A stretch of DNA of 36,916 bases from a virus, in the IMG/VR virus record IMGVR_UViG_3300025655_000118, positions 1 to 36,916 of that record; one strand, 5' to 3'. Below the pieces are notes generated by a model, which searched no databases, was not told the DNA's origin, and worked only from the letters and a program-made list of their open reading frames with translations. Below, piece after piece: positions 12,044 to 34,412 of this stretch (position 1 is its first letter; each line of letters begins with the position of its first letter). The position numbers and the translations under genes were made by a program.

Positions 12044-13066
12044 TCACACTTTTCTCCATTCACTCAACTTAGCTTTGGCTTTCAATCCTTGATAGGTGTT
12101 ATTACTTATAATTGCTTGAACTTCTTCTGCATCCCTGCCAGCTAACACCATATCGTTGATGTCTTTTTCTTTTACATAGTCAGGGAACAAAGCAATACTA
12201 TAACCTAGATCGGCAACTTTTTCAATACGCTTGAGAATTTCTTTATTTCGTGGCTCATTATCAAATACAAATACGATGTCAGTTGTACCAAGAGCATTAA
12301 GTGCTTCGGCAGAAAGATCTGACCCAGCCATTGCAACTGCGTTATCAAGAAACATTGAATCAATTGGTCCTTCTACTATGTAAACTGTCTTTGATCGATC
12401 AACAGTATCAAGACCAAAGATTTTCGGTGCTTCTTCATCTATCTTCACAGTTATATAGCGTAGACCATTCTTGCTAAACGATCTGCCTTGGAATCCCACC
12501 AATTGTTTATTCCTATCAATAAAGGGGATTATTAGGCGTGGTTCGTCTTTGTCAATGTCAGTAAATTTTGATGGTGCAAACTGTCTAGCAAATTCATAGA
12601 ACTTCGGTGCATAGAACAGTTTGTAGTGTACACGCTTAGGAATACCACGCTTGGTAACATACTGACGCACTGGATGCTCAGGATCCAGTTGAGATACCTT
12701 TTTGAGTTTACCAAGCGGTGTTTTTAGATACTCAGGACGCTTCTGAAAGCGCAGGGATGGTTTTGACGCAGGAGATATAGGTTTGCGTCTTTCTTGAGTG
12801 CCGAATCGCTCTAGAGCGTACTCTTTGTGTAGAGAGGGATTGACATGTTTAATTAAATTAGATAGAGTAGCACCATGACCACAGTTGTGACACTTGTAGA
12901 TTGGTTTGTTTTCTTTGTCGAAAATGTAGCCACGTGCCTTAGACTTATTGGTCTGTGAGTCTCCACAGAAAGGGCAGCGCATGTTATATACGCCATTGCC
13001 CTTGTTCTTAAAGTTTTCTAAAGAAGCAGAAACAAGTTGAATGTACTTTGTATCAATATAATCCAT
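12044..13066 (-). CDS. 61: DNA primase gp61
   Basis: The 340-aa protein has an N-terminal zinc knuckle (C31-PF-C34 ... C59-HN-C62) and a TOPRIM core: E232 in YIVEGPIDSMFLDNAV, and the acidic strand IVFVFDNEPRNKE (D269, E271). A conserved IPFIDRNKQLVGFQGRS precedes the core. This is the T4 gp61/DnaG-type primase that makes RNA primers with helicase gp41. In T4 itself gene 61 follows gene 41; here about 18 kb of late genes lie between them. Confidence 0.9.
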   Translation of the reverse strand: MDYIDTKYIQLVSASLENFKNKGNGVYNMRCPFCGDSQTNKSKARGYIFDKENKPIYKCHNCGHGATLSNLIKHVNPSLHKEYALERFGTQERRKPISPASKPSLRFQKRPEYLKTPLGKLKKVSQLDPEHPVRQYVTKRGIPKRVHYKLFYAPKFYEFARQFAPSKFTDIDKDEPRLIIPFIDRNKQLVGFQGRSFSKNGLRYITVKIDEEAPKIFGLDTVDRSKTVYIVEGPIDSMFLDNAVAMAGSDLSAEALNALGTTDIVFVFDNEPRNKEILKRIEKVADLGYSIALFPDYVKEKDINDMVLAGRDAEEVQAIISNNTYQGLKAKAKLSEWRKV

Positions 13067-17377: not shown

Positions 17378-20300
17378 TTACTTGTTGCGTTTCTCACGCT
17401 CTTTCTTGAGCATGTCCGCAATCTTGCCGAGCTTGCTCTTATCAGAACCAGACATGTTCTTTTTCTTTTCAACATCAGCAGTGTCAACTGTTGCTTCCAT
17501 TACATACACTTCTTTAGAACCGAGTGCTTTCATGGCGTTCTTAGCAACATCACCCAGCTTACCCCTGCCGCTGAAAGTTTCTTTCGACTTTCTGCCTGGA
17601 GCTGCAGTAGTGAACATCCAGTTGCCTTCTCCTGATGCTTTCTTACCATGAGCATTAATATAGCGATCATGTCTGATTGCTTCATTAATTTCGTTTTCGC
17701 TCATAGCGTCAACATCTTCCTTTCTAAAAGGAACAACATTGTCCTTTGGCACTGGCTTCTGAACATTCTTCAATGGATCCAAGCGAGTGCGAGCATTGCC
17801 CAAGTTCTTTGCATAAGTGTCCATAGACTTCTTACCTGGCAAAGAACCAGAAAGTGCCTGACCAATACGCTTCTGAGCATAGTTGAAAACAGTACCTATT
17901 CCCAATTCGTCAATTTGCTCTTCTTCCATTTTAGACTTAGAGTTTGCCCATGATGGATTGTGACTTGGATCTTTTAGATCCTTTTGTGCCTTATCATTTG
18001 CTTTCTTGCGCTTCTTCAACATCATTGCGGCATAGTTCTTAGGGATCTTATACGCTTCGCCAAGTTCTTCCCACTGCTCATCAGTCAGGTCAAAACCTTC
18101 CTTCATAGCCATCTTCGTAGCAGTTGCATACATCACTGCCTTAGCACGATCACCATAACGCTTCTCGAAGTCGCCCTTCTTGTCCTTCATAGACTTGACG
18201 ATTTCTTCACGCTTTCTCATTTGCTTATCGGTCATCTCTGCTTCTTTCATAGTCTTGCAAGATGCTTCATCAAGATCAATCTCTTCTTCTTCGTTGCGCA
18301 AAGCACGACCAAGTGCCTTCATTGATTGTTGTCTAGTCGCATGACCAGTATCGCCAGGACCAATGTTCAGTTTATTGCGCTTGTTGTACAGATCACCACG
18401 AGCGGTATCCATACGATTCTTCTTCGTCTTGTTGCGAGTCTTCACTTCGCCTGCTTCATCAAGTTCAATTTCTTCATCCATGCTACCCTTGACACGATTT
18501 ACTTCATACTTGCCGCCAACACGGTCAACCATATTGCCACGCTTGGCATATGCTTTCGCTGACTTTTCGTCTCTGAAGTTCTTTTCTGCTTTCGCCTTAC
18601 CATTCTTGTCTTTATAAACAACATGCCAGTAATCTTCTTTTATGTTAGGATTGACTTCGATTGGTTCCTGCTTTGCAGTTCCCTTGCCCTTCTTAACATC
18701 ATCAGCGTCCTTGGCTTTCATGCCCTTTACTTCTTCAGCATCATCTTCCTTTTCAACTGCCTTTGTGACAGCCTTACGACGATTATGCAGATACTTGTCA
18801 GTCTTATCTACCTTGCCATCATTGTTAATATCTTTGTCCTTGCGATCAGCAAACTTACCTTTGGCTTGCTTAGGATCAGCAGGATCAAGTGGTTTGGAAT
18901 CGACATCGCCATCCGCTGCGAGGACACCCTTAACAGCATCCAACAACGATTGCGTCAATCCATATTTCTTGGCTTCGTCAACCGTATTAATGGACATGTT
19001 AATCTCCTCGTCTAAATCAATTTCTGTTTCTTCGATGATTACACGATTACCCTTGATTGTAATATTCTTACCAAGAACTTTGGCAAGACGGATAAGTTTA
19101 TCATCGCTGGTCTTGTCAATGTAATCAGACATCATTTGCTTCAGCGTCTTTGGCATACCTGCCTTCGGAATGTTGAGTGGTGCTTCGTTGATTTCAACTT
19201 CTTCATTCAACGCACTCATTACATTCGCAATCTGTCTTGGCGACATATTCATTCTATTCATAGCAGCAGTTGCGTCTTTAACAGATACTTCTTTTTTCGT
19301 ACCTGGCTTCAGATAACCAAGAACCTGAGCAGAAACTCTTGGGCTAAACTTAGCAGTCACTGCTTTGTTCAGCGCATCAGTTGATACCATTGCTGCTTCA
19401 TCAAGTTCTACAGACTCTGCTGTAACTCTAATGACATCAGCAATCTTTGCTGCAGTAGCAGTTGGGTGTGCTTTGACCGCACGATCAAATTCTTTATCAA
19501 CCATCTGCTTCACGCTCTTAGGATTGTTGCCATACTTGACTAGCAACTTGGCTACATTATCCTTAGTGACTCGTGCTTCATCAAGTTCAAACTCTTCGTT
19601 TGCCTTGTCAAACTCTTTCTTGGTTGCCTTAACAATACCAGAGAAACGCTTATCGCCACGCTTGAAGTCGCCTTCCTTGTCTGCCTTACGAGCATCTTCG
19701 CCTGCCTTCTTCTTGTAAGAGGCAAGAGTTTCTTTGCTCAGTTCATCAAGTTCCACTTCTTCACCAAAGAAAGCATCGACTTTCTTTTCGCCATATCTGT
19801 CATCAAGGACTTGTCTAATTGCGCCTGCTTTATCATAACCCTTTAGGTCAACAACACGATGACTGCGTCCAATGATGTTGCGAAGATCAGCAATGGGCTT
19901 TTTCTTAAGTGCTTCGTATTCTTTATAGATTGGTGAAGACTTATCTAACTTAGCTTCATCAAGTTCAATCTCTTCTTTCATAACAACATAAGAAACAAAT
20001 TTCTTACCTGAAGTTGGGTGAATAAAGGTTTTCATCTTAACCTTACCACCATTCTTTTTTGCATGGGCAAAAGCATCAGCCTTCTTCGCAAACTCATTCT
20101 GAGGAGGTTTAATCATTGGCGATGCTTCATCAAGTTCAACTTCTTCATTCATAACACGATCAAGCAGCTTCTTCGCTTCCTTATCGTTGACATTAAATGC
20201 CTTCTTGATAGCAGCCAAACCTTCTCTTGCGTTCTTCGTCTTAGCAAGAACAATATGAATCGCATCGTTGCTAATCTTCTTTGCTTCGCCAAGTACAACC

Positions 20301-21631
20301 GCACGAACTGCCTCATCGAGTGAGTATTCAACTTCTTCTTTAGCAACACCACGACCAGCACCCTGCCAATCTGGTTTAGCCATAGCTGCAGTCTTTGAAG
20401 CAACACCCTTTCCTGGACCAGTCCAGTCTGCCTTAGCACCAGCAAACTTCTTCTTGGTTTCCAAGTCGCTCATACTATTAGATTTGGATGGTGTGGTTGG
20501 ATCAGGTTTAGCTGGTGCAGCTGGGCGAGGCTTGTTAACATATGCCTTCAGTTTATCAAAACCTTTGTTTGCATATGGCTTAACTACATCAACTGCTTTC
20601 GAAATCGCATCACCTGCAGCATCAGCTGCACTGCTTGCAAATTTGCCAATTGCTTTGACTTGTGATGTGGTCTTCGGTAATGTATCAGAAATGCTCTTAT
20701 CACCAAGTCCGCCATAGAACTTAGTATAACGATCCTTGATTTTTGATGCAACATCGCTGACAGCAGAAACTGGTTTGGAATTCGCAATCTTATCGCCGAG
20801 TCCGCCATAGAACTTAGTATAACGATCCTTGATGCCCTGCCAATCCAATTCATCCAACTGAACACCTTCTTCATTGAGTTCTCCAATAAACTGTTCCCAC
20901 AGTTCATCGTTGACATCAATCTCGATTTCAAACTCTTCGTTCATGTTATGCTTAGTTACATCGCCACCCTTGGTCAAACGATTGTATGCAAGAGAGTGCT
21001 GAGCAGCAGTGTCCATATACTGCTTGCGAGCATTATCATTTCCAGCTGAGTTTGCTGCAACGATGCTCTTTTTGTAGTTTGAAGCATGGTAGTCTAATCT
21101 TTCTTTGTCGCTCATACCTTTTGTGTCATCTCTAGACTCTTTCAGCTTGTCATAGGTCTTAGGAATAGTCTTATCAACATCCCATCTAACATCTTTTGGA
21201 TTAACTTTCTTACCGCTGCCAACTGGTTCTGGTGGACCAACTTCAGGAGCCATTTCGCTCATACCCTCAAGCTGACGAGCTGGCACTTGGTAGGTTTTGC
21301 CATCTTCGCACTTAACGGTGTAGACCTCATCTTCGCCTTCGCCTTCAGAAGAAATAACTGAACCCTTCATACCTTTCCAGATTACAGTGTCGCCTTTCTT
21401 GAAATGTGACTCATCAAGATCCATTTCTTCTTTGATGCTCTTGCCAGTCTTTTCTCTATAAAGAGCAGCGTGTTCCTTTGCCGCATCCTTATGATACTTT
21501 TCTTTGGTGTCCATATACTTTGCGATATGGTCGTGGTATGCATCTTTGTGTTCGTCTGGCGAATAGTTGCTTACATCCGCTTCTTTCAACGGTTGATACA
21601 TCCCACGGATTGTATTGATCAGATTAGCCAT
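17378..21631 (-). CDS. Giant modular capsid-associated polyprotein (1417 aa)
   Basis: The protein starts with a short leader ending PLKE|A (E17) and is punctuated by at least fourteen [L/I]-[D/N]-E sites, mostly after acidic EEVEL-type stretches. E is at 74, 261, 440, 502, 559, 630, 685, 745, 816, 875, 1059, 1122, 1242 and 1317. This is the consensus of the T4 prohead protease gp21. Between sites are 40-150-residue mini-domains: an SH3/KOW-like piece (76-125), helical modules (450-495, 560-620), an LSKETLASYKKKA module (631-675) whose relative is in the 1469-aa protein, an EF-hand-like DINNDGKVDKTD loop (934-945), and others. Likely made late, packaged and cut into many peptides; packaging and cleavage are inference. 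Confidence 0.7.
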   Translation of the reverse strand: MANLINTIRGMYQPLKEADVSNYSPDEHKDAYHDHIAKYMDTKEKYHKDAAKEHAALYREKTGKSIKEEMDLDESHFKKGDTVIWKGMKGSVISSEGEGEDEVYTVKCEDGKTYQVPARQLEGMSEMAPEVGPPEPVGSGKKVNPKDVRWDVDKTIPKTYDKLKESRDDTKGMSDKERLDYHASNYKKSIVAANSAGNDNARKQYMDTAAQHSLAYNRLTKGGDVTKHNMNEEFEIEIDVNDELWEQFIGELNEEGVQLDELDWQGIKDRYTKFYGGLGDKIANSKPVSAVSDVASKIKDRYTKFYGGLGDKSISDTLPKTTSQVKAIGKFASSAADAAGDAISKAVDVVKPYANKGFDKLKAYVNKPRPAAPAKPDPTTPSKSNSMSDLETKKKFAGAKADWTGPGKGVASKTAAMAKPDWQGAGRGVAKEEVEYSLDEAVRAVVLGEAKKISNDAIHIVLAKTKNAREGLAAIKKAFNVNDKEAKKLLDRVMNEEVELDEASPMIKPPQNEFAKKADAFAHAKKNGGKVKMKTFIHPTSGKKFVSYVVMKEEIELDEAKLDKSSPIYKEYEALKKKPIADLRNIIGRSHRVVDLKGYDKAGAIRQVLDDRYGEKKVDAFFGEEVELDELSKETLASYKKKAGEDARKADKEGDFKRGDKRFSGIVKATKKEFDKANEEFELDEARVTKDNVAKLLVKYGNNPKSVKQMVDKEFDRAVKAHPTATAAKIADVIRVTAESVELDEAAMVSTDALNKAVTAKFSPRVSAQVLGYLKPGTKKEVSVKDATAAMNRMNMSPRQIANVMSALNEEVEINEAPLNIPKAGMPKTLKQMMSDYIDKTSDDKLIRLAKVLGKNITIKGNRVIIEETEIDLDEEINMSINTVDEAKKYGLTQSLLDAVKGVLAADGDVDSKPLDPADPKQAKGKFADRKDKDINNDGKVDKTDKYLHNRRKAVTKAVEKEDDAEEVKGMKAKDADDVKKGKGTAKQEPIEVNPNIKEDYWHVVYKDKNGKAKAEKNFRDEKSAKAYAKRGNMVDRVGGKYEVNRVKGSMDEEIELDEAGEVKTRNKTKKNRMDTARGDLYNKRNKLNIGPGDTGHATRQQSMKALGRALRNEEEEIDLDEASCKTMKEAEMTDKQMRKREEIVKSMKDKKGDFEKRYGDRAKAVMYATATKMAMKEGFDLTDEQWEELGEAYKIPKNYAAMMLKKRKKANDKAQKDLKDPSHNPSWANSKSKMEEEQIDELGIGTVFNYAQKRIGQALSGSLPGKKSMDTYAKNLGNARTRLDPLKNVQKPVPKDNVVPFRKEDVDAMSENEINEAIRHDRYINAHGKKASGEGNWMFTTAAPGRKSKETFSGRGKLGDVAKNAMKALGSKEVYVMEATVDTADVEKKKNMSGSDKSKLGKIADMLKKEREKRNK
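20696..20833 (-). repeat. Duplicated 15-residue segment in the 1417-aa protein
   Basis: Codons for IKDRYTKFYGGLGDK occur twice (20833-20789 and 20740-20696), 93 bases apart and almost identical in DNA. A second near-repeat, DWTGPGKGVA/DWQGAGRGVA, follows at residues 402-430. Both suggest recent internal duplication of short linkers or binding peptides. Confidence 0.8.
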
Positions 21632-21632
21632 T

Positions 21633-22079
21633 TTATCCTACCTTCTTTAGATGAGAGTTTAACATCCAACGATGTTTGTTATGTGCGTCAATTCTTGCGG
21701 CAAGGTGATCCATCAATCCTTGCAGATTTTCTTTTTCTGCTGCGGCGAACGCTTCGAGGAACGCAGTCCTAGTCTTTTCGTTATCCGCCAGGAGTATTTG
21801 TACCATTGTGAGCGGAGGCAATTCAACTCTGTCTTCACCAGTGACGGTGCTAAGTTCTTGAAGACGTCCCAGTGAACCAGGAGTATAAGCATCGAGTGTT
21901 CTAATCTGCTCCGCTGTGATATCCAAGGAAGCCTGAACCTCTTCATAAATGTCTCCAAAGAACTCATGGAATTGATAGAACTGTGGTCCTTCTACATTCC
22001 AGTGAAAGTTGTGCGCCTTCATATAGAACGCAAAAGACGTTCCGAAAGCAATCTTCAATTTTTCAATTACTTCATCCAT
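21633..22079 (-). CDS. dps: Dps-family ferritin-like protein
   Basis: The 148-aa protein has the full Dps ferroxidase set at exact family spacing: H26, H38 (+12), D53 (+15) and E57 (+4), within KAHNFHWNVEGPQFYQFHEFFG and SLDITAEQI. E. coli Dps uses H51, H63, D78 and E82. Dps forms a 12-mer that oxidises and stores iron and can coat DNA, protecting it from Fenton damage. Unlike E. coli Dps it lacks a long lysine-rich N-terminal tail. The start overlaps the stop of the 1469-aa gene (TAATG), and the next giant gene starts a few bases after its stop, so it is made with them as late product. Packaging is possible but no leader is seen. Confidence 0.9.
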   Translation of the reverse strand: MDEVIEKLKIAFGTSFAFYMKAHNFHWNVEGPQFYQFHEFFGDIYEEVQASLDITAEQIRTLDAYTPGSLGRLQELSTVTGEDRVELPPLTMVQILLADNEKTRTAFLEAFAAAEKENLQGLMDHLAARIDAHNKHRWMLNSHLKKVG

Positions 22080-25000
22080 TAGTCTTCCACCTTATGTCCA
22101 GCACGCCATTGCCTGCAGCTCCAATATCTTGCTTTCCACTTTGGTCCAATATCATCATCGCAAGAGTGACGAGAGCGGAATGCTTTTCTGCGCTCAGGAT
22201 CGTCACGCTTGATCTCCATGTTTGGATCACCAAATGTTACCTTGACAACATTGCCTTTGTCGTTCTTTACATATACACCAAACTTCTTCTTAGAACCAGC
22301 AGGCAAGCGGAACGGATTATTTAGTTCTACCTTCTTGCCTTGATACTCAGCTGCTTCGATAACCAAAGATTCAATCAGATCACCAGTTTCTGGGCAGTAT
22401 CCGTTCATAAGATTGCTTACTGCCTTCAGCGGACGCTCAACTGCCTGACGAACCGCTGCAGTTGGACCAGTCTTGACCATATCTGGTGTAAATGCTTTCA
22501 TTGGACGCAAACTAGAAACGCTTGTATCACCTGACTTAAACGCAGCATCACTGCGAGTCATCTGGCTGATGTCGTCTTTGGCAAGAGTCTTTAGCGATGC
22601 TTTATCTTCACCAGGAACTCTTACATTACGTCCTTTGTTCCACCAATCAGACTTACCGAGTTTGTTTAATCCTTTAGTTGCCAGAGAAGCAGCACCTCTC
22701 GCAGCCAAACCAACCAGTGGACCAATCTCATCTAACTGAGTTTCTTCAGTCTTTAACTTGGTTGCTTCATCGTGTCTTGGGTGTTGCGGATTATTTAAAA
22801 TTTCTCTAAACTTCTTACGAGTAACACCCATTTGCGATTGCGGCGAACTTGATGGAGCAGCAGTTGTACCCTTATGTTCAGGTTTTGCCACGCCCTTCAG
22901 CGCATTCATACGCTGACCAGCTTCGCTTGATTTAACAGCACTATCATGTGCCATCTTCTTAGCCATGTCCTTGTACATAGGACGAACATCTGGATCAACC
23001 TTTGGATTCTTAGAAAGATCAGTTACCTTATCAATCGCACCTTGTGGATCTTTGTCGAAGTTGAATTGCTTTTTATTGTATGTGTCCAACTTATCAAACG
23101 CACCCTGATAACCTTTCGTAGCTTGATTCTTTGCTGCACGCTCAGCTCTATCAGCTTCAGATGCTTTAAATGCCTGAGATCTTCTTTCTGCATCTTTTGC
23201 TGCTTGAGCAACTTCAGGTTTCTTAGCAGCAGCCTTTGCTTGCTCACGAGCCTTTGCCTTAGCGATAGCGGCAGCATCATCTGCGGTGCTGGTTGCTACC
23301 TTGCTAAGAATACCTTTAATGATTGGATTTTCTTGCAGAGTTTCTTCAGATACAGATTGACCAGGAGTTTGATTTCTGTAATTGTTAGCCAGCTCATCAG
23401 TGCCCCATTCGCCAGCACCAGCAGTTGACTTGGCTTCTTTTTTCTTTGATAGGATAGACTTCAAATTTTTCTTTTGAGCGTCTTCTTTTACATATGAGTT
23501 AGTCTGAAAATCAGATACATCACCTTTCTTCAAATTAGATTTGATCTTAGGATCGATGTTATCATATGCCTTCCAAGCATTAGACCAGTCTTTGTCAGTC
23601 ATAGACTTAGTTGCTGGAATATAGTTTGGCGCCATCTTCTGAATAATAGCACGACCAAACATACCACTGTCAGCAGCACCCATAAATTTTCTGACTTGAT
23701 CACTGTTCTTGCTTACATAGTCACGAACATAACCCTTCAGCTGATTATTTGACATACGCTTGAGTGGTTCCATCTGTGGAACATCAGCCCAGCGCAAACG
23801 ATCAATGGTGCGATCCGCATCTTCAAGCATCTTGCTGAATTCTTCTGGAATGTAAGAGTTGTTCATTACATTGCGTTCAGCTGGCGTGATGCGTTGGATT
23901 GGTTCAAAGTCAGATGCTTTCTCTGGTTTTCTTAGAATGTCTGCCAACTTCTTTCTTTGGCTCACATCTCTAGCGTTGAATGTATCTGGATTCTTAATCT
24001 GTTTGAATCCCATAGCATCCATTCTTCTAGTCAATTCTGCTCTTTCAGTATCAGAAAAGTCTTGCCACTTGTAACCGTCTTCACCAAGAGGTGTTCTTTC
24101 TTTCTTTTCAAAGTCATCAGGTTTCTTAACTGGTTTTGAAGCGGTGCGACTAGCAACTTCTTTATCCATTGCTCTAGAAATACCAGCCTCACGCTTTTTC
24201 GCTCTTTCTATATCACCTGCTTTACTAGCAGCAGCAGAATCAGATGCTGCCTTAGAAGCATACTTGATCAATGTTTGTGGGCTGAGTTCATTCAGCTTAG
24301 GAACATCGCTGGTAGATGTGGCTGTATCTTTAGGTTCAAGTGCCATCGTACCAACACTACTACGACTTGCTGTACCTTTTCCAATTGCTTTAGCACCAGT
24401 CTTAATTGCTTTACCAGCGGTTGAGATAATTCTGGCAGCAGTAGCAAGTGCTGGTACAATTTCGTCTAGTTGAGTTTCTTCATATGCAACACCAACCTTG
24501 GTGTGCTTCTTTTCCAACTCACCATGTTTCTGTAGTGCCATCTGGACTTTCTTTTGATCCTTTTCTGTACCAGTAACTTCAGGTGGAGCAGATAGTATTC
24601 TATCAATGTCATCAACATCGCCGTCGTTATCAACATCAACGCCGACATCCTTCATAGAATGCTTCAAACTTTTCTTTGGATCCAAAGCATGAGCAATTTT
24701 TGCTTCATTCATATGTTTGAAGAACTCAATCTGACGCAAACGCTTCTTGGCTGCAGCTTCAGTATCGTATGTGCCAAGTTTTTTAGAGCCATCCTTAGAA
24801 TAGATAACCCACTTTTCACCTTCATGCTTGATGGTTTCGTTGATCTCAGCAAATTTACCGATTCCGTTAGACTTCGCCCACTTCAAAAACGCCTTTGGCT
24901 CATAATATGTGGTAGAACGACCTCTTACATATGTGGTGATGCCTGATACTGGTTTAGGCATATCAGGATATTTTTTTGCCAATAGACCAAATTGATTTAC

Positions 25001-26488
25001 TTTAATCCCAACCATATCAGCAATTTCTTTTGCTGTTCTTAGAGGAAGTCTAGGAGTTGTGTTTTTTTGAGGAGTATAATCCCATGACTTCTTCACCATT
25101 CTTCCAGATTTATTTTTATGTGGATCAACTTCTTCTTTAACAGGAACGCAGTTTGGAACGGTCTTACCATTCTTTTTCTTAGTGCCAATTGCTTCATAAC
25201 CCTTCCAACATGCACTCTCAAGACCATTCTTTCTTGCTTCAGCAACAAAATGATTTACTGCAGCAAAACGCTGTTGTTGCTCAGTTGCGCTCTTAGAAGA
25301 ATCTATCTCAGCAGCATCATACACTTCAAGAACTGCATCAATGCTTACATTAATTGCTTCAGCTTTCTTTTCAAGACTTTCATATGCTTCTTTAGTGATG
25401 CCACGATTACGAAGCAGCGTATCCTTTAGTCTTGCTTGATCACGCATACGATCATGCTTAACAAAGTCATTACGCTTTTCTCGATTAATGTCGTTTAACG
25501 CACGGATTTCGTTTGGTCCTTTGCGTCTTTCCATTAAGTCTTTAAATGATTTCACTGGAGCAACCTCTTCTCTTAGGTATTCTTCGTTCTTAGGTGCACG
25601 AGCAGCTGATACACGAGCAATTTCTGCTTTACGAACTTTCGGCAACAGTCTTTTTGCAAGACGGTCAATCATTGCTGACTTCTTCTGCACCAATTTGTCG
25701 ATGGTGATCTTTTCACCTCTACCGAGTTCTCTGTATTCTTTACCACGCTCGCCAGCAACACGCTTACGAAGGAACTGAATGGCTTGCTTACGAGAACGCT
25801 TCATCAAACGATTAGTATCTGCCATGCGTTTCGCACGGATCTTACGCATACGAGCAACTTTCTTAGCAATGCGCTTCATCATACGAGCACGCTTTAGACG
25901 CTGCTGTTGATTCAGTACAGCATACTCGTCAAGCTGTTGTTCAGTTTCTGGCTGTTCCATAATAGAACGCAGCTGGTCATAAATCTTCTTAGCACTAGAT
26001 TGAAGATTGCGTGGAAGACCTGTCTTAAATGCTGCAAAGTTTCCTTCTTTAGCCAGAGCACGCAACTTGCTTGCGCTCATGCCTGATACATCATCAGCAT
26101 CAGGATCACGCTGACCAGCAGAAACAACTTTAATTGAATCAAATGTGTAATCCTTGCCGTTATATTTGTTCAGCAAAGTATCAAAATCTTTTACTCGATC
26201 AGAACCAACAACGATTGTAACATCAGTGTACCCTGCTTTTTGCAGTTCCTGCATTACTTGAATGATTGTTTTAGCGTTGCTCTTAGTTACTGATGGACCA
26301 AATGCTTTTTGAGCAAGAGCAATTTTGGTATTGTAATCGAGAGGATCTTTCTTATTGTTCTGAGAGTGAGAAAGATAGATTCGAGCATCTGCACCTTTCG
26401 CTAATGAAGTGATCTTATCAACGAGTTTCTGGTGTCCAGATGTTGGTGGATTAAGGCGACCAAAGGTTGTGACAACTTTCTTAGACAT
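22079..26488 (-). CDS. Giant modular polyprotein with N-terminal nucleotidyltransferase domain (1469 aa)
   Basis: The start is set at ATG 26488 (MSKKVVTTFGRLNPP...), overlapping the homing-type gene stop; the longer frame lacks a ribosome binding site. Residues 1-165 form a cytidylyl/adenylyltransferase-like domain: GRLNPPTSGHQ (the HxGH-type motif has S17-G-H19), VVGSDRV, and SASKLR (138-143, the ISSTxIR-type motif). Next come an Arg/Lys-rich helical region (about 190-300), a CWKGYEAIG...VPNCVP motif (427-449), a helix-turn-helix-like segment (about 478-540), an EF-hand-like DVDNDGDVDDID (618-629), an LSPQTLIKYASKA module (735-747), and a conserved C-terminal domain ending YWSCRQW. [L/I]-x-E sites recur (E188, 307, 551, 676, 734, 1053, 1254). 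Likely a packaged, protease-cut protein; inference. Confidence 0.7.
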   Translation of the reverse strand: MSKKVVTTFGRLNPPTSGHQKLVDKITSLAKGADARIYLSHSQNNKKDPLDYNTKIALAQKAFGPSVTKSNAKTIIQVMQELQKAGYTDVTIVVGSDRVKDFDTLLNKYNGKDYTFDSIKVVSAGQRDPDADDVSGMSASKLRALAKEGNFAAFKTGLPRNLQSSAKKIYDQLRSIMEQPETEQQLDEYAVLNQQQRLKRARMMKRIAKKVARMRKIRAKRMADTNRLMKRSRKQAIQFLRKRVAGERGKEYRELGRGEKITIDKLVQKKSAMIDRLAKRLLPKVRKAEIARVSAARAPKNEEYLREEVAPVKSFKDLMERRKGPNEIRALNDINREKRNDFVKHDRMRDQARLKDTLLRNRGITKEAYESLEKKAEAINVSIDAVLEVYDAAEIDSSKSATEQQQRFAAVNHFVAEARKNGLESACWKGYEAIGTKKKNGKTVPNCVPVKEEVDPHKNKSGRMVKKSWDYTPQKNTTPRLPLRTAKEIADMVGIKVNQFGLLAKKYPDMPKPVSGITTYVRGRSTTYYEPKAFLKWAKSNGIGKFAEINETIKHEGEKWVIYSKDGSKKLGTYDTEAAAKKRLRQIEFFKHMNEAKIAHALDPKKSLKHSMKDVGVDVDNDGDVDDIDRILSAPPEVTGTEKDQKKVQMALQKHGELEKKHTKVGVAYEETQLDEIVPALATAARIISTAGKAIKTGAKAIGKGTASRSSVGTMALEPKDTATSTSDVPKLNELSPQTLIKYASKAASDSAAASKAGDIERAKKREAGISRAMDKEVASRTASKPVKKPDDFEKKERTPLGEDGYKWQDFSDTERAELTRRMDAMGFKQIKNPDTFNARDVSQRKKLADILRKPEKASDFEPIQRITPAERNVMNNSYIPEEFSKMLEDADRTIDRLRWADVPQMEPLKRMSNNQLKGYVRDYVSKNSDQVRKFMGAADSGMFGRAIIQKMAPNYIPATKSMTDKDWSNAWKAYDNIDPKIKSNLKKGDVSDFQTNSYVKEDAQKKNLKSILSKKKEAKSTAGAGEWGTDELANNYRNQTPGQSVSEETLQENPIIKGILSKVATSTADDAAAIAKAKAREQAKAAAKKPEVAQAAKDAERRSQAFKASEADRAERAAKNQATKGYQGAFDKLDTYNKKQFNFDKDPQGAIDKVTDLSKNPKVDPDVRPMYKDMAKKMAHDSAVKSSEAGQRMNALKGVAKPEHKGTTAAPSSSPQSQMGVTRKKFREILNNPQHPRHDEATKLKTEETQLDEIGPLVGLAARGAASLATKGLNKLGKSDWWNKGRNVRVPGEDKASLKTLAKDDISQMTRSDAAFKSGDTSVSSLRPMKAFTPDMVKTGPTAAVRQAVERPLKAVSNLMNGYCPETGDLIESLVIEAAEYQGKKVELNNPFRLPAGSKKKFGVYVKNDKGNVVKVTFGDPNMEIKRDDPERRKAFRSRHSCDDDIGPKWKARYWSCRQWRAGHKVED

Positions 26489-26936
26489 AATCCCATCCCA
26501 ACTCTCTTGGAGTTTTCCCAATGTCATTAACTGTAAATAATTTACCTGCCTGTTTTACAGGAGAATCTAATCTTTCGTTAAGTATAGAACGAATTGCTTC
26601 AGTTGTTGTATCTAGTGCTTTAGCAGCTTCAACCTTGCTTCTATATTCACCATAAGGAGTTTTTATTTTTTTTGCTGCTGCGTTGTTTAAAGAAATAAGT
26701 TGTTTAGTCTTTTTGCTGAGAGTAACACCTTTTCTATTACATGGGCGTGCTTTTGCAGAAATACTCATTTGAGTTTTACTTTCTTCAGTATGTTTTTGTC
26801 CATAAAATGTATTGAGTTCACCAGACATACAAGTTTGGTGCTCATACCCATCAAGTTTAAGATTTTTTGCTGGGGGAATCCCCAGAATGGCAGAAATGTT
26901 TTGATTTAGGCGCAAAAGTTGCGTTTCTTTTTTCAT
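26481..26936 (-). CDS. Homing-endonuclease-like DNA-binding protein (NUMOD), nuclease domain not seen
   Basis: The 151-aa protein contains a NUMOD3-type motif (FYGQKHTEESKTQMSISAK). It then has a NUMOD1/HTH-like module (TPYGEYRSKVEAAKALDTTT and TEAIRSILNERL), the usual DNA-recognition part of GIY-YIG and HNH homing enzymes. No catalytic GIY-YIG or HNH core is present, so it may be a remnant or a partner of another nuclease. The N-terminal ISAILGIP is shared with the gene at 2905-3381. It is inserted between the membrane-protein gene and the giant gene, whose start overlaps its last codons, and it has its own upstream late promoter. It is more A+T-rich than its neighbours. GAGGAAAAT precedes the ATG. 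Confidence 0.65.
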   Translation of the reverse strand: MKKETQLLRLNQNISAILGIPPAKNLKLDGYEHQTCMSGELNTFYGQKHTEESKTQMSISAKARPCNRKGVTLSKKTKQLISLNNAAAKKIKTPYGEYRSKVEAAKALDTTTEAIRSILNERLDSPVKQAGKLFTVNDIGKTPRELGWDYV

Positions 26937-27032: not shown

Positions 27033-27040
27033 TATTTATA
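27033..27040 (-). promoter_or_regulatory. T4-type late promoter
   Basis: Exact TATAAATA on the minus strand about 12 bases after the stop of the 96-aa gene and 97 bases before the homing-like gene. It can also drive the giant polyprotein genes and dps downstream. The leader lacks the hairpin found before the other two homing-type genes. Confidence 0.75.
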
Positions 27041-27051
27041 AGAAATCAATT

Positions 27052-27342
27052 TTACCAGGGCATCATACTACGCATCATTCCCATTGGATTCATTCTACTT
27101 CTCATATCACCGACATTCCCGTTGATATTATAGACGCCTTGATTCATTACTTTCATGTCTGTTTCAATGCGAGCAACATCCTGTTGCATCTTATGAACAG
27201 CATTCGCCATCACTTCCCAAGATTCAACCATACGACTCATGTGTTGGTTTGCTAGAAACCCAACATACAATACACAAGCTGCTACGGTGAGTTGAGATAT
27301 TGCGGTTATCCAACCGCAAACCTTACTTGATTCACATTGCAC
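27052..27342 (-). CDS. Small membrane protein with coiled coil (96 aa)
   Basis: The start is a GTG at 27342 overlapping the TAG of the previous gene (TAGTG); no in-frame ATG lies nearby. Residues about 10-30 form one transmembrane helix (WITAISQLTVAACVLYVGFL). A helical coiled-coil part (SRMVESWEVMANAVHKMQQD) and a Met-rich tail (RMNPMGMMRSMMPW) follow. The tail looks like a conserved ending. It sits in the cargo cluster, but it lacks the propeptide of its neighbours. Function unknown; a membrane-docking or DNA-entry role would be speculation. Confidence 0.6.
   Translation of the reverse strand: MQCESSKVCGWITAISQLTVAACVLYVGFLANQHMSRMVESWEVMANAVHKMQQDVARIETDMKVMNQGVYNINGNVGDMRSRMNPMGMMRSMMPW
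27300..27319 (-). other. Perfect 8-bp hairpin inside a start region
   Basis: TTGCGGTT-GGAT-AACCGCAA on the minus strand forms a perfect 8-bp stem with a 4-base loop, about 23-43 bases after the GTG start of the 96-aa membrane protein. It encodes CGWITA residues. It may affect translation or RNA processing; no function is known. Confidence 0.5.
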
Positions 27343-28571
27343 TAGCGTTGCCAGCCTTTAATAATATCGGAGGAGAAATTGGCTTTCGAGAACTCCATTC
27401 TGTTCACAAGTTTCAAAGCACCACCAGTGTGATCAATACCAACATAACCTTCTGGAGCAGTTACTCTGAAACCATCAGTTGTGCGAAGAAAAGTACCAAC
27501 ACTTGATGCTTGATTTAACTTGTGAATGATAATTTCTTTCGCTTCAATTATATAGTTCATCATCAAAAAGATATTCTCCAGATGCACTCGATTCGCATTA
27601 CTGAAAAATCGTAGAATCTCAACACGCTTTTCCAATTGAGTTTGCTTGCCTGCTGGAGTTTTGCGCTTACCTGCTTCTTGCGAATAGTATTGTGAGATGT
27701 AGTTGATCAAATCTCTTACATGAGCACGGACATTGGTAATCTTTTCACCTGCTCGTACTTTGGTATTGTAATGCGTCTTTACTTTCTGCAGCAGTTCAGC
27801 ATTATCTGAGATACCATTAAGTGTTTTGGCGTCAAGTTTATTGAAGATTGTACCAGCAGCAGAAAGCAGCTTAGTAATCTCAGCAGTTTCTTTCTTAGTG
27901 AAGGTAGCATTACCTGAAACATCATGAAAGGTAGCATCAACTGACCATACATTCTTAGACTGTCTTAGTTGACTGGCAATTTCTTTACCGAACGATGCCT
28001 TCATTGTTTCAAACGAGCCACCAGTGTATGTTGTATGCCATACGATACCGATCTTAGATGCAGCAATCTTGCGACCTAGATCTGAACGAACAGGTACAGC
28101 ATACACGATTGTATTTGGATGGAAGGTAAGCAACTGCTCACCATCAATTGTTTCTTTTCTCAGATCAGACTTCGCATAAAGGAAGTCGCCCTGATACACC
28201 CCATGCTTGATACCAAGTTCAGGTAGATATTGAAGTGCCAACTTTAATTTAGCGGCAAGATCACCAGAGGTATCAGCGTCAACCTCAGCGGCAGTCTTAT
28301 ATACTTTCGGGTTCTTATTGAAGATACCTTTCTTAGCAACAAAGAACTTGCCATCAGTTGGATCAATACCAGCAAACACTGCTGGTGCACCATCCCACTT
28401 TACGGTAACATTGACTGGTTTATCAGCATGACCAGCAAGCATATCTCTAAGACTGCGAAGAAGATTAATTGCATCACGAGTTCCTTTCACGCCACCATTG
28501 AGAACAGCATCCTCAAGATGCTCCATGTGGGTGTTCTTTTCTTCTGCTATGAATGTTGAAAATTTACGCAT
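27342..28571 (-). CDS. Ligase-fold nucleotidyltransferase with capsid-targeting leader
   Basis: The first ten residues, MRKFSTFIAE, followed by E, match the T4 internal-protein leader (MKTYQEFIAE|A), which is cut by the prohead protease. The 409-aa body has VKWDGAPAVFAG (K58-x-D60-G61), the motif I lysine of ATP-dependent DNA/RNA ligases, then FFVAKKGIFN, GVYQGDFLY (124-132) and IGIVWHTTYTG (174-184) as candidate motifs III-IV. It resembles KxDG proteins found in other marine T4-type phages. Predicted to form a nucleotidyl-lysine and possibly seal nucleic acid after injection. The start overlaps the stop of the 87-aa gene. Activity and packaging are inferred. Confidence 0.7.
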   Translation of the reverse strand: MRKFSTFIAEEKNTHMEHLEDAVLNGGVKGTRDAINLLRSLRDMLAGHADKPVNVTVKWDGAPAVFAGIDPTDGKFFVAKKGIFNKNPKVYKTAAEVDADTSGDLAAKLKLALQYLPELGIKHGVYQGDFLYAKSDLRKETIDGEQLLTFHPNTIVYAVPVRSDLGRKIAASKIGIVWHTTYTGGSFETMKASFGKEIASQLRQSKNVWSVDATFHDVSGNATFTKKETAEITKLLSAAGTIFNKLDAKTLNGISDNAELLQKVKTHYNTKVRAGEKITNVRAHVRDLINYISQYYSQEAGKRKTPAGKQTQLEKRVEILRFFSNANRVHLENIFLMMNYIIEAKEIIIHKLNQASSVGTFLRTTDGFRVTAPEGYVGIDHTGGALKLVNRMEFSKANFSSDIIKGWQR

Positions 28572-28827
28572 AAAAATCCCAAGCGTTATCTACTGACCAA
28601 CCTTGCTTCTTCTCAAATGCCTTCCAAGCAGCAACACCGAATTGATCTTTGTACTGTTTAATCATACCATTCATTGCATCAACATTGTTTTGTGCTTGTC
28701 TGTTGTTACCAACTGCGCCACGAATACCACGATCTAAATGATTGCGAATCGTTTGCGCTTTACGCAGCATTTTCTTTTCCAGCGCAGAGGCATTTGCTTC
28801 ATTTAGATAAGTTGAAAACGATAACAT
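28564..28827 (-). CDS. Small helical protein with capsid-targeting leader (87 aa)
   Basis: The start is at 28827, where ATG overlaps the previous stop (TAATG); an earlier ATG at 28845 lies inside the upstream gene. The N-terminus MLSFSTYLNE|A has the same pattern as its neighbours, with E at position 10 and a leucine two before it. The mature part is helical and basic (EKKMLRKAQTIRNHLDRGIR), then a WKAFEKKQGWS segment and NAWDFYA end. No family recognised. By analogy with T4 IPI-IPIII, it is a candidate small injected internal protein, the type that in T4 can inhibit host restriction enzymes; that role here is speculation. Confidence 0.65.
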   Translation of the reverse strand: MLSFSTYLNEANASALEKKMLRKAQTIRNHLDRGIRGAVGNNRQAQNNVDAMNGMIKQYKDQFGVAAWKAFEKKQGWSVDNAWDFYA

Positions 28828-29315
28828 TACAGATAACCTACCCATGCTCTTTGTTTATACCCATCAGGAAATGCAATCAAATTTTGAATCGTTCTATGCC
28901 AACCTTCTAGAATCTCAAATCCATCTTTGCGTTGTAGAACAATAATTGGTTCTGGGCTAACTTTCCCAGTGGATTTAATAATGTTTGATTGAGCAGCGTG
29001 TCTTTCTGCGTCTTTCGGAACTCCCCATGGGTTTTTCTTTCCGCCAGCACGACGCTTTAGATTGTTTGTTGTTTGCTTGTCAAAAGAATCTTTAGTAAGA
29101 TCAATCGTTTCCAATTTCCATTGCTTTACAGGCATTTCTTTTGTAAGCATTCGATTGATTTCTCTTTTCAGAGTGCCAAGATCCGCTTCATCTTCTAGTT
29201 TACGATAAAGCATATCCTTTACGACATAATCTGGCCAATGTTTTGGTACAAGATCACGGATTACTTTCCATGATCCTGCTCTTGCTTCGGTTAGATATGA
29301 GGTAAACGATTTCAT
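28827..29315 (-). CDS. ParB/sulfiredoxin-like protein with capsid-targeting leader
   Basis: The N-terminus MKSFTSYLTE|A is a T4-style 10-residue leader. In the C-terminal part PEPIIVLQRKDGFEILEGWH (121-140) with R141 matches the ParB/Srx core, where G-x-H-R binds nucleotide (CTP in ParB, ATP in Srx). The middle is basic, with KRRAGGKKNPWGVP near 87-100. The 162-aa size suits a single-domain ParB-like protein, a group that includes nucleases and nucleotide switches. The gene overlaps both neighbours by 4 bases or less. It is predicted to be packaged and injected; whether it binds or cuts DNA cannot be told. Confidence 0.7.
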   Translation of the reverse strand: MKSFTSYLTEARAGSWKVIRDLVPKHWPDYVVKDMLYRKLEDEADLGTLKREINRMLTKEMPVKQWKLETIDLTKDSFDKQTTNNLKRRAGGKKNPWGVPKDAERHAAQSNIIKSTGKVSPEPIIVLQRKDGFEILEGWHRTIQNLIAFPDGYKQRAWVGYL

Positions 29316-30145
29316 TTTGCGCCAAACAGTTCTTTCACGTCTTTCATATTATCCAAACTGTATGGAGACTTGCTCTTGGTAAGCATACGACCGATACATC
29401 TTAACTCAGCACGACGTGCTTCAATAACTTTGTTGCTACCTGCTTTGTTAGAAAACGCTTTACTGGTAGAACCACCAGAGTCACCAGCGTAACCAATACG
29501 CACTTCGACTTGAATCTCACCATTAAATTCAGGCACAGGCAACTTCAGAGGATTCTTACCCATGTAGAACAAACCAGCACCGCCGATCTGAATGTAATAT
29601 ACATTTTTGCCGTTGTAAAGATTCTTAATGTAGCGTGAGTCTAGTTTAACATAGTCCTGTACTGCTGCTTGGAGACCTGCTTTCTTAGCGGCATCCCTTG
29701 CTGCTGTGCTTGCTACAAAAGGAACACCAACTTTAGCATAATCTTTATGCACCTTAGTTGGTTCTTGTTTTGCGATAAAATCTAGATACTTATTGATAGC
29801 AGGAAGTTTTGCTTCAACCGCTTTCATCAAAATGGCAATGTCTTCTTCGTCACCAGAAGCGGCGAGTTTAGGGGAAGGAGTCAATTGTTTGCTCTTACGA
29901 TCATAGCGCAGACTTCCGCCACCCATCTGGTCTTTCATACCTGCTTTGATTTCGATATTGAATGCCTTGCCGTTGTAGGCTGCCTCAATATCACCAGAGC
30001 CATGACTAGAGAATCCAGCACCTGGTTTGTCACCAGCGTCCAGCCCTTTGATCTTTGCGCCTGTTAGTGCTCTGTACACCTTCAGTTCATAATCAAGTCC
30101 AGCTGTTCCAACGGTTTCTTCTAGATATTCTTTAAACGAGTGCAT
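29312..30145 (-). CDS. PD-(D/E)XK nuclease-like protein with capsid-targeting leader
   Basis: The protein starts MHSFKEYLEE|T, a T4 internal-protein type leader with E at position 10. The body has a helix with E20 (DYELKVYRAL), then SGD52IEAAYNG and FNIE65IK67AG, the D...ExK active site of PD-(D/E)XK nucleases. QMGGGSLRYDR and a long helical C-terminal part follow. Length 277 aa. It is the first of four overlapping leader-bearing genes and has its own late promoter (30169-30176). It is predicted to be packaged in the head and injected; its target could be host DNA, superinfecting DNA or its own recombination intermediates. Confidence 0.75.
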   Translation of the reverse strand: MHSFKEYLEETVGTAGLDYELKVYRALTGAKIKGLDAGDKPGAGFSSHGSGDIEAAYNGKAFNIEIKAGMKDQMGGGSLRYDRKSKQLTPSPKLAASGDEEDIAILMKAVEAKLPAINKYLDFIAKQEPTKVHKDYAKVGVPFVASTAARDAAKKAGLQAAVQDYVKLDSRYIKNLYNGKNVYYIQIGGAGLFYMGKNPLKLPVPEFNGEIQVEVRIGYAGDSGGSTSKAFSNKAGSNKVIEARRAELRCIGRMLTKSKSPYSLDNMKDVKELFGAK

Positions 30146-30168: not shown

Positions 30169-30176
30169 TATTTATA
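30169..30176 (-). promoter_or_regulatory. T4-type late promoter of the cargo operon
   Basis: Exact TATAAATA on the minus strand, overlapping the stop of the 401-aa gene. It is 23 bases before the nuclease ATG, with an AGGA ribosome binding site in between. It drives the four leader-bearing genes. Confidence 0.8.
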
Positions 30177-31377
30177 CTTGAACGCCCATTCGGTCAGACG
30201 CTCTAGTGTAGCCATTCTTGGTTCTAAGATATACTCTACCATATGACTGGATTTCTTTGATGTCATCAGAAGCAATTACACCCCATTTACCAGTTCCGTC
30301 TGGTCCAACCTCAAACTTAACATATAAAACTTGTTCTTGAATCGCATCAGAAAAAATAGAGTTCATGTCTAGAGTACCATTCTTGGTCTCTTTCATAATC
30401 ATCTTTTCACATTCATACATTATTTCATTGGCAGTTGGTGTAATTCTTTCACTCAGATATTGATTGGTTGCAATAAACTTTTGAAAGCCAGCAACATTAT
30501 AACTCTGTTTCGTTGCTGTTGCTGCTGCATTCATATCAATCAAATTGGGATAGATAGAAGCAATCGCCATCATTGGTCCATTCAAAATACTATTTTCAGC
30601 AAGCATCTTAAGCAATGCCCATTCTTTTGTGCGCTGCCACTTTCTAACTTTATTTGGATTGATACTCAACAGATTTAAAATGTCACCTGGTTTGACCACA
30701 TTGGTTGTGTTACCAGACTTAGCAGAAATAACAAACTGTTTGTTGCCCTGATACAAACCATAATCCATTAATGGTTCATTCGGACGCTCAGGCATATACA
30801 CCTTTGCCCCATTACTTAATTCAACACCCTTTGGTCTAAGAATATCTTCTACAATGCATGCAGCTGGACCAAGAACTTCACCAAAGTCTTTATTGATATC
30901 ATTAATAGGAATTTCGTCTTTGACTTTACTGTAGATATCTTTTAGTTTCGATTTGGTTATTGATCCGCCAGAATAATAATCAAACAATGCAGCCAAATAA
31001 GTTTTAACTGGAGCACGAAGGTCTTTGCGCTCCTCAATAGAATCTTTGACCAATCTTTTGTATTCGCTCCAACTATACTTGTTATCACGAACGCCAAATG
31101 CCTGCGGTTTGAGGGATGCTGCACCAGACGCTTTAACTCCTGGCTTGGCTAAACTATCAAAAGGAACACGGACTAGATCTTTTCCCCATTTAACAAGTGC
31201 ACGCTGCTCATATTTTGCAGCCTTTAGATAAATTACACTCTCTCCAGCTTTAATGTCGCCAATCTTTTTGCTTGGATTATCAGCTGCATATGTCCCTGCG
31301 TCCTTCTTCATTGTTGTGAGAAGGTCGCCTTTGCCTTGAAAGTATTTTCCCCATGCGGTTGCGCCAGAACTTGCCAT
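30172..31377 (-). CDS. Hypothetical protein, possible restriction-endonuclease-fold (401 aa)
   Basis: The N-terminal 35-80 region looks like an SH3-type barrel (IKAGESVIYL...RALVKWGKDLVRVPF). The centre has FGEVLGPAA (E167), LMDYGLY (D205) and FVISAKSGNTTN (K220). The order E-helix, D, then x-x-K followed by SG is reminiscent of PD-(D/E)XK enzymes, though the usual E/Q before K is S-A here. No capsid-targeting leader is present. No ribosome binding site is visible, and a late-like octamer lies so close that the mRNA may be leaderless. It sits just downstream of a strong terminator and just upstream of the cargo operon. The nuclease call is weak. Confidence 0.5.
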   Translation of the reverse strand: MASSGATAWGKYFQGKGDLLTTMKKDAGTYAADNPSKKIGDIKAGESVIYLKAAKYEQRALVKWGKDLVRVPFDSLAKPGVKASGAASLKPQAFGVRDNKYSWSEYKRLVKDSIEERKDLRAPVKTYLAALFDYYSGGSITKSKLKDIYSKVKDEIPINDINKDFGEVLGPAACIVEDILRPKGVELSNGAKVYMPERPNEPLMDYGLYQGNKQFVISAKSGNTTNVVKPGDILNLLSINPNKVRKWQRTKEWALLKMLAENSILNGPMMAIASIYPNLIDMNAAATATKQSYNVAGFQKFIATNQYLSERITPTANEIMYECEKMIMKETKNGTLDMNSIFSDAIQEQVLYVKFEVGPDGTGKWGVIASDDIKEIQSYGRVYLRTKNGYTRASDRMGVQV

Positions 31378-33026: not shown

Positions 33027-34412
33027 TTAGACCTTCAAACCACCGAATTTAGAGGTCTTGTCAGGACGCTCACGAGTCCCAAATGTATTGATTGGTCCAG
33101 CGTCCTCCTCATGGATCAGGTCATCCTGAGCGGACTGCTCAGCGTCGTACAACCTCATCTTTGGACGGTCTATACCCACTACAAACTTTTTATTGGTATT
33201 TGGATCTCCATAACGATTCTTTAATTGTTTTACCAAAACCTGATTTAATTGATTTAATTCATCATTAGAAATAATGGCAATCATAAAATCGGCAGTTGCA
33301 GGTAATCCAAATGATTCAGAAGTATCTTCCAAACCAATATCAGAATTGGTATATCCAGAACGAGTAGTCTGAGTCGCTGACCAAATTGGAACATTCTGCT
33401 CCACTGCCAATCCTCTTAATTCCTCGGCGATCGCTTTAATGTAGGAATAAGTATTAACCGATCCACCCATTTTCATTCTACTGGATGCACAAATATTGAG
33501 ATAATCAATGTAGATAATATCTGGTTTAAATGACTTTTTGAGTTTAAGTTCATTAATCAAATGTCTAAAATGTCCCACGTTTGCAGCAGCTGTTGGATAT
33601 TCTTTAACAATTAACTTGCCAGTGGTTTTATTGCGAATCCGATCCATCTTTTTATCATAAGATGCTTTCGGCAATTCAGCCAATTCATCCAAACGAACAT
33701 TCAACATATTGGCGTCAATACGCTCCGCAATCTTTTCTTCTGCCATTTCCAGAGTAATGTATAATACATTCTTTCCGTCTAGGAGATTTGCCGTTGCCAT
33801 ATGACACATCGCCAAAGATTTACCCACGCCTGTACCAGCAAGGATAATGTTCAGGGATTTCTTCGGAACCCCACCTTTGGTAATCTTGTTGAGATAATCA
33901 AGGTCAAACGGAATACGCTCTTCGACACGGTGGTAAAAATCAAATCGAGCATCGCTATTATCAAGAAGGTCATGCCCGACATTAGGATCAAAAGAAACAG
34001 CAAGGGCATCAGAAAGAAGCTGAGGAATCGCTCCTTTGTCCCTTTTCCCATCGCCATCGATGATCGAGATAGAGTCCATAATCGCATTGTAGATTGCCTT
34101 TTCTTGACAGAACTTTTCAGTTGTACTTACAAGCCAGTCTTTATCGTCATGCTCTTCATCGGTCAATGTATTAACATACCGAGCAATGTCTTCAAACTGC
34201 TTGTCGTTTAGATTGGAGCGATTGTCAATCTCAATCGTCAATGCCTCCCTTGATGGGAGAGCATTAAATTTGCCAATAAACTTGTCGAGTTCTTCGTAGA
34301 TAACCTTCTCTGTGATGTCAGAGAAGTATTCAGGTTTTAGATAAGGGAGTGTACGTCTTGCATAATCCTCAGAGTGCAGGAGATTCTTCAGTATCAGATG
34401 TTCCGTTCTCAT
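33027..34412 (-). CDS. 41: Replicative DNA helicase gp41 (DnaB-like)
   Basis: The 461-residue protein has Walker A AGTGVGKS (192-199), Walker B KPDIIYIDYLN (297-306 region), a LEMAEEKIAERI segment after the nucleotide site, and a C-terminal RYGDPNTNKKFVVGID arginine-finger-like region, as in T4 gp41 and DnaB. It is a hexameric 5'-3' helicase that works with primase gp61 and polymerase gp43. The start overlaps the 106-aa gene by 44 bases. Its 3' end abuts an early cassette, which separates the replication genes from the accessory island. Confidence 0.95.
   Translation of the reverse strand: MRTEHLILKNLLHSEDYARRTLPYLKPEYFSDITEKVIYEELDKFIGKFNALPSREALTIEIDNRSNLNDKQFEDIARYVNTLTDEEHDDKDWLVSTTEKFCQEKAIYNAIMDSISIIDGDGKRDKGAIPQLLSDALAVSFDPNVGHDLLDNSDARFDFYHRVEERIPFDLDYLNKITKGGVPKKSLNIILAGTGVGKSLAMCHMATANLLDGKNVLYITLEMAEEKIAERIDANMLNVRLDELAELPKASYDKKMDRIRNKTTGKLIVKEYPTAAANVGHFRHLINELKLKKSFKPDIIYIDYLNICASSRMKMGGSVNTYSYIKAIAEELRGLAVEQNVPIWSATQTTRSGYTNSDIGLEDTSESFGLPATADFMIAIISNDELNQLNQVLVKQLKNRYGDPNTNKKFVVGIDRPKMRLYDAEQSAQDDLIHEEDAGPINTFGTRERPDKTSKFGGLKV

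Follow-up and report, generated by a model that had tools for sequence, protein, structure and literature searches.

The internal proteins IPI, IPII and IPIII of bacteriophage T4 share a 10-residue N-terminal leader that targets them to the capsid. Mutagenesis of the IPIII leader, summarized in a review of Black's work, assigned residues 4 and 7 to targeting and residues 8 and 10 to processing, and the prohead protease gp21 cleaves after the motif L/I-x-E (PMC9026906). The injected Ip proteins of the T-even phages likewise consist of unrelated bodies with a common N-terminal packaging leader, swapped in one genomic slot, and they inhibit type IV restriction enzymes (PMC12373910). Here we analyzed a stretch of viral DNA (IMG/VR record IMGVR_UViG_3300025655_000118, positions 1 to 36,916; all 36,916 nucleotides are called ‘the window’ below), in which four consecutive genes on the minus strand, at 27342-30145, start with a leader of this kind. 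The source is probably an aquatic phage, T4-like and from the Kyanoviridae-like group of marine and fresh waters. The locus resembles that of the T4 internal proteins in the 10-residue leader with its positions 4, 7, 8 and 10, in the late-promoter word and in the gp21-type protease found in relatives. In contrast to the T4 proteins, the bodies look like enzymes (a nuclease and a ligase-like protein), the four genes lie in one overlapping operon, and they are known here from sequence alone. Whereas the T-even Ip proteins inhibit restriction enzymes, one of the bodies in the window itself resembles a restriction endonuclease in fold.

Other described systems show partial likeness. The restriction endonucleases in virions of the chlorovirus PBCV-1 are likewise viral nucleases that presumably reach the cell together with the genome and break down host DNA, but PBCV-1 is a eukaryotic algal virus that uses another packaging route and shields its DNA with methyltransferases (PMC7019647), whereas in the window phage the suspected target site is absent from the genome. 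Polyvalent proteins and MuF-fused injected effectors are also head-packaged enzymes that act early in infection (PMC5512222, PMC9503650); they are carried in as structural fusions or as parts of very large proteins, whereas the proteins described here have a cleavable leader or form modules separated by L-x-E sites. Finally, the cyanophage genes T4-GC190 and T4-GC71 (the latter a DUF6267 gene) occupy the same neighbourhood between gp41 and gp61, and the role of the DUF6267 gene was left unexplained (PMC3037559).

The shared ten-residue leader

The cassette consists of gene 1 (29312-30145, minus strand, 277 amino acids), a PD-(D/E)XK nuclease with a predicted HhaI-like fold; gene 2 (28827-29315, minus, 162 amino acids), with a ParB/Srx-like ILEGWHRT motif; gene 3 (28564-28827, minus, 87 amino acids from the leader ATG), a small and probably helical protein; and gene 4 (27342-28571, minus, 409 amino acids), a ligase-like protein of the family DUF6267 (PF19782). 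Their neighbouring ends overlap by 4, 1 and 8 nucleotides. The frame of gene 3 is open for six codons upstream of the leader ATG, to 28845, and because its true start is therefore uncertain, we set it by the leader. The four leaders, in which a slash marks the predicted cut after E10, are MHSFKEYLEE/T (30116-30145, minus), MKSFTSYLTE/A (29286-29315, minus), MLSFSTYLNE/A (28798-28827, minus) and MRKFSTFIAE/E (28542-28571, minus). Position 4 is F and position 10 is E in all four, position 7 is Y, Y, Y and F, and position 8 is L, L, L and I, so that residues 8-10 form the gp21-type motif L/I-x-E as LEE, LTE, LNE and IAE. A first-pass annotation made from the sequence had pointed out these four consecutive leader-bearing genes with their common E10, L/I8 and aromatic pattern; all four open reading frames (ORFs) were found there, and every N-terminus agrees, with F4 and Y/F7 as the aromatic residues.

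The same annotation had proposed overlapping stops and a dedicated late promoter. In addition to the overlaps, we found a perfect consensus match to the T4-type late promoter word, TATAAATA (30169-30176, minus), 23 nucleotides upstream of the nuclease start codon. This word occurs 6 times in the window against 1.6 expected. Ten of 21 related loci have it 13-44 nucleotides 5' of the nuclease, and it precedes 33 of 182 leader genes compared with 70 of 2,480 random stretches. These findings fit late transcription of the four genes, probably from a single T4-type late promoter.

We scanned seven sequences (the window, T4, DLP6, C48C1, HTVC008M, S-SM1 and DSL-LC02) with the pattern M..[FYW]..[FYW][LIVM].E. 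Of 2,157 candidate start codons, 18 fitted the pattern, whereas the 4,394 internal methionines gave no match. In T4 the scan returned gene 61.1 and two genes that, by position and sequence, we take to be IPII and IPIII (both MKTYQEFIAE). In other words, the pattern has a near-zero background and finds known capsid-targeting sequences. Even with the background set to its upper 95% bound (~7e-4), four leaders among the 42 ORFs of the window would arise with a probability of ~1e-8.

We also compared 80 homologues of gene 4 from viral contigs, which carry 56 distinct leaders. In these, position 4 is F in 37 and L in 16, position 7 is F in 27 and Y in 24, position 8 is L in 36 and I in 19, and position 10 is E in 53, while positions 2, 3, 5, 6 and 9 drift. 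Given that the codons for the shared residues differ between homologous leaders while residues 4, 7, 8 and 10 are kept, this is selection at the protein level on the very positions named by T4 genetics. The first-pass annotation had called the element a T4-style capsid-targeting leader with a gp21-type cut after E10, and this call is strongly supported: both the pattern scan and the 56 leaders agree with the T4 mutagenesis. In AlphaFold models, the leader regions (residues 1-12 of the nuclease and 1-14 of the DUF6267 protein) have a predicted local distance difference test score (pLDDT) below 50, and the bodies are modelled with confidence.

The leader is also portable. In the loci examined it is carried by 188 distinct proteins that form ~40 unrelated body groups, a few of those with a single member perhaps being chance ORFs. 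Varied domains behind the leader in other T4-type genomes had been envisaged in the first-pass annotation, and this is what we observed. Most bodies match no known domain; two match Zeta-toxin-like kinases, one HD_4 and one DUF6321, and another resembles the HAD-like family DUF2608 just under the cut-off of that family. The gp21 protease family, Peptidase_S77, is present in C48C1, DLP6 and HTVC008M and in 7 of 9 further related records, and the gp23 propeptides of relatives hold L-x-E where T4 gp23 is cut (FLTE/T in C48C1, FLTE/A in T4).

The strongest experimental evidence is of an indirect kind and comes from virions of a cyanophage. Mass spectrometry of purified S-SM1 particles identified T4-GC190, a cytidylyltransferase (PMC3037559). 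In S-SM1 it is gene SSM1_190, whose N-terminus reads MKKFSAFLNE/A, and its counterparts start with MKSFSQFLTE in P-SSM2 and MKRFLQFLSE in DSL-LC02. The S-SM1 virion thus contains one leader-bearing protein from this gene neighbourhood, and the leader offers a reason for its presence there. Based on the conserved functional positions, the absence of pattern background, the portability and the virion detection of T4-GC190, we infer that the four proteins are very likely internal head proteins that are packaged and have their leader cleaved. Their leader features would place them in the capsid-targeting-sequence class of T4 internal proteins, whose N-terminal propeptides have 10-19 residues, and, by analogy with T4, injection into the host cell is likely. 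The T4 targeting rule would then extend to a large, mostly uncharacterized group of environmental T4-like phages, and the 10-residue pattern, with its almost absent background, could serve as a search tool that marks ~40 unknown protein families as probably internal to the head and likely to be injected.

As a separate observation, T4 gene 61.1 (positions 267-431 of locus L212), which starts with MKTFKEFIKE/D and fits the same leader pattern, is annotated just as hypothetical in that record. It adjoins gp61, one border of the interval that holds the genes of the window.

The nuclease, CGCG avoidance and the DUF6267 protein

The assignment of gene 1 to the PD-(D/E)XK nucleases, made in the first-pass annotation, held up in active site, model and fold. 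E20, D52 and E65-x-K67 are invariant in 22 homologues (alignment A2), and the family occurs in 47 viral loci. In a Foldseek search with the AlphaFold model (pLDDT 82.8), the sole good match in the PDB was HhaI (6uke), with a probability of 0.98 and a template modelling score of 0.44-0.47. HhaI was not found by profile search of PDB sequences with the nuclease, and neither single proteins nor the profiles A1 and A2 retrieved a usable match from the PDB sequences. We considered HhaI's own site, GCGC, as the avoided one and rejected it: GCGC is near normal, and CGCG is depleted instead.

The window contains no CGCG, against 59 expected from trinucleotide composition, and synonymous-codon shuffles of 15 window genes gave an expectation of 33.2 (standard deviation 5.2) against none observed. 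Of 24 records with the nuclease, 20 are depleted in CGCG, compared with 5 of 37 records without it (Fisher p = 7.5e-8, the records being related), and CGCG alone among the 4-base palindromes differs in this way by nuclease presence. Distant carriers behave alike: CGCG is found 0 times of 192 expected in G007 (nuclease ~33% identical), 3 times of 67 in G005 (42% identical) and 0 times of 16 in the 120 kb of P-SSM2 (27% identical). No DNA methyltransferase was recognized among the window genes searched, the record being a fragment. From these distributions, CGCG emerges as a candidate cutting site of the nuclease, an assignment that we regard as nearly, but not quite, evenly balanced. The window also strongly avoids CCGG (0 against 22 expected) and GGCC (4 against 38 expected). 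In the whole S-SM1 genome (L106-L114), which has a different nuclease-like gene in the slot ahead of DUF6267, GTAC occurs 0 times of 486 expected and CCGG 0 times of 138.

Gene 4 matches PF19782 with an E value of 1.7e-115, and DUF6267 is present in 465 phage records, mainly from cyanophages. Its invariant columns are KWDG at 58-61 (with K58), QGD at 127-129, EG at 374-375 and K387; their fit to the motifs of covalent nucleotidyltransferases is moderately supported. The AlphaFold model of the protein has a pLDDT of 86.5. No paper mentioning this family was found in the literature searched. For gene 2, the first-pass annotation had proposed a ParB/Srx-like protein. This call is weak, being one of motif-level resemblance: there was no significant match in Pfam or PHROG. 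Gene 2 was found in just two further contigs, both 100% identical, and genes 2 and 3 occur solely in this lineage.

Proposed mechanism and alternative explanations

We propose the following mechanism. The leader, with F4 and F/Y7 for targeting and L/I8-x-E10 for cutting, would bind the four proteins to the prohead core, and a gp21-type protease would cleave after E10, leaving the mature enzymes alongside the DNA inside the head. If they behave like the T4 internal proteins, these enzymes would then enter the cell together with the genome. The nuclease would attack DNA other than that of the phage, which would be spared by having purged the site, most likely CGCG, from its genome rather than by methylating it, and the DUF6267 protein would be a ligase-like enzyme of the KxDG type, with nucleic-acid ends as its probable substrate. 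Taken as a whole, this describes a virion-packaged, methyltransferase-free restriction endonuclease injected against host or rival DNA, with self-immunity through loss of CGCG, together with the ligase-like DUF6267 protein and a polyprotein that the prohead protease would split into at least a dozen small modules (encoded nearby, see below), as an exchangeable injected set. We offer this combined reading tentatively and hold it to be somewhat on the doubtful side. It makes testable the idea that a phage packages a restriction-like enzyme and protects itself from it by site loss rather than by methylation.

A number of observations weigh against this reading. With respect to packaging, the virion-proven relative bears the leader on a different body, the cytidylyltransferase, and a Peptidase_S77 (gp21) search of the window, which is a 36.9-kb fragment, found none. 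Leaderless homologues, which the first-pass annotation had named as evidence against its proposal, do exist in part: cyanophage DUF6267 homologues lack the leader and have the predicted mature N-terminus as their first residue (MKNTHLEHLED in DSL-LC02), and the nuclease homologue of P-SSM2 lacks it and starts at, or close to, the residue predicted for the mature protein. Packaging is thus not required in all phages. The start of the leaderless DUF6267 homologues at the predicted cut, on the other hand, supports the view of the leader as a removable element. With respect to the site, nuclease-bearing L012, L038 and G048 retain normal CGCG, and after correction for kinship with the DUF6267 tree the link keeps its direction but is not significant (~3.8 agreeing against 0 opposing pairs, median p 0.125). 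Leaderless nucleases (G006, G007 and P-SSM2) likewise go with CGCG absence; this rules out the idea that CGCG loss accompanies leader-bearing nucleases alone, and CGCG loss therefore speaks for specificity and not for packaging. With respect to the enzymes, the structural match between the nuclease and HhaI has an E value of only 0.0067, and the closest PDB folds of the DUF6267 protein are DNA and RNA ligases, matched weakly (E 0.06, probability ~0.5). Of the call of gene 4 as a KxDG ligase-fold enzyme, therefore, the KxDG, EG and K motifs stand as invariant and the fold is weakly matched, which leaves the call moderately supported. Structural models, which the first-pass annotation had proposed for all four mature proteins, were obtained for genes 1 and 4.

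The shared N-terminus might have a meaning other than injection. The leader may target the prohead while the proteins serve head assembly as core or scaffold partners. T4 IPIII does influence head assembly (PMC9026906), and the neighbouring ORFs rich in L-x-E sites resemble core or polyprotein material. However, a scaffold would have no need of a nuclease site that is intact in 22 homologues or of an invariant KxDG in gene 4, and the bodies swap freely behind the leader, so that we consider an assembly role unlikely. It is far less probable still that the N-termini reflect a translational or DNA-level element, such as a mobile initiation region, rather than a protein signal. Overlapping genes do give the starts similar contexts, but the upstream sequences differ between the genes, residues 4, 7, 8 and 10 persist through codon changes, and these very residues have a function in T4 (PMC9026906).

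We also considered the possibility that CGCG is absent since the common hosts restrict it, and that the nuclease, having no CGCG specificity, is simply carried along. This is a serious possibility, though one we would stop a little short of calling even. Phages widely avoid sites cut by host restriction (PMC6286503); DLP6 lacks GGCC (0 of 538 expected) though it is without this nuclease; and the missing CCGG sites of the window fit the same explanation. L145, L190, L200 and HTVC008M are moreover devoid of CGCG and of this nuclease family, but a different PD-(D/E)XK-like gene occupies the same slot in them. Further points speak against host restriction: L125-L131, the nearest DUF6267 relatives without the nuclease, keep CGCG at about half to full expectation, GCGC and other palindromes do not follow nuclease presence, and the distant carriers G005 and G007 agree. 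The remaining question is whether the four genes are obligate parts of a single DNA-processing kit, much as the first-pass annotation had suggested. They share one promoter, overlap and bear a common leader, and nuclease-like genes recur beside DUF6267: among ORFs of 200-450 amino acids directly upstream of it, 65 of 94 bear a PD-(D/E)XK-like signature compared with 78 of 559 control ORFs of the same size from the same loci. These rates are merely indicative, because the signature is a regular expression written after some of these proteins were seen and some loci were retrieved via the nuclease itself. The nuclease-like neighbours fall in several unrelated clusters, many of them leader-bearing; in other loci the slot holds a HAD-like or kinase-like protein, and cyanophage DUF6267, unlike that of the window, is often leaderless, or adjoins or is fused to a cytidylyltransferase. 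Because genes 2 and 3 are lineage-specific and missing from other lineages, we reject the kit, which strikes us as quite improbable. In our reading, a variable packaged nuclease beside a conserved ligase-like protein is the arrangement that recurs, and the exact four genes do not.

Neighbouring genes and genomic setting

The cassette lies in the conserved gp41-to-gp61 interval, bordered by a gp41-type DnaB helicase (33027-34412, minus) on one side and a gp61-type DNA primase (12044-13066, minus) on the other. Within it, an ORF at 17378-21631 (minus, 1417 amino acids) is a candidate polyprotein of the prohead protease. It contains 16 [LI][DN]E sites, where shuffled sequences have 1.5, and the longer acidic form of the site occurs 9 times compared with 0.02; motifs like (E)EVELDE/A recur every 50-180 residues. 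DNA coding for EEVELDEA is found in at least 120 viral stretches, and in 25 of 80 loci read there is one ORF with at least three such sites. The module at residue 631 comes after LDE, and in three other proteins the homologous module is preceded by IDE or INE. The next ORF (22079-26527, minus, 1482 amino acids) encodes a cytidylyltransferase followed by modules after L-x-E sites. Its module at residues 609-689 comes after MNE, and the same module stands directly behind the leader in L138 and L229 (MIRFKQFLDE/K). Since module borders coincide with the sites, the simplest reading is that the ORF at 17378-21631 encodes a polyprotein cut by the prohead protease. No description of such a polyprotein was found in the literature searched, and the apparent processing of this bacteriophage polyprotein by the head protease can be tested.

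Another good example of a polyprotein-like sequence is L250, which begins MKSFLDFKSIDE. Other phages encode the C-terminal module of the cytidylyltransferase ORF (residues 1392-1482) as a separate gene. The start of this ORF, which is leaderless here, is overlapped by an ORF resembling NUMOD3 homing endonucleases (26481-26936, minus), whose insertion may have displaced the leader. A second late-promoter-like TATAAATA (27033-27040, minus) precedes the homing-endonuclease remnant and the cytidylyltransferase ORF. Immediately 3' of DUF6267 lies a gene for a small probable membrane protein (27052-27333, minus), which is not part of the leader set. Just 5' of the cassette, an ORF of 401 amino acids (30172-31377, minus), with neither leader nor family match, contains the PD-(D/E)XK-like stretch DYGLYQGNKQFVISAKSG.

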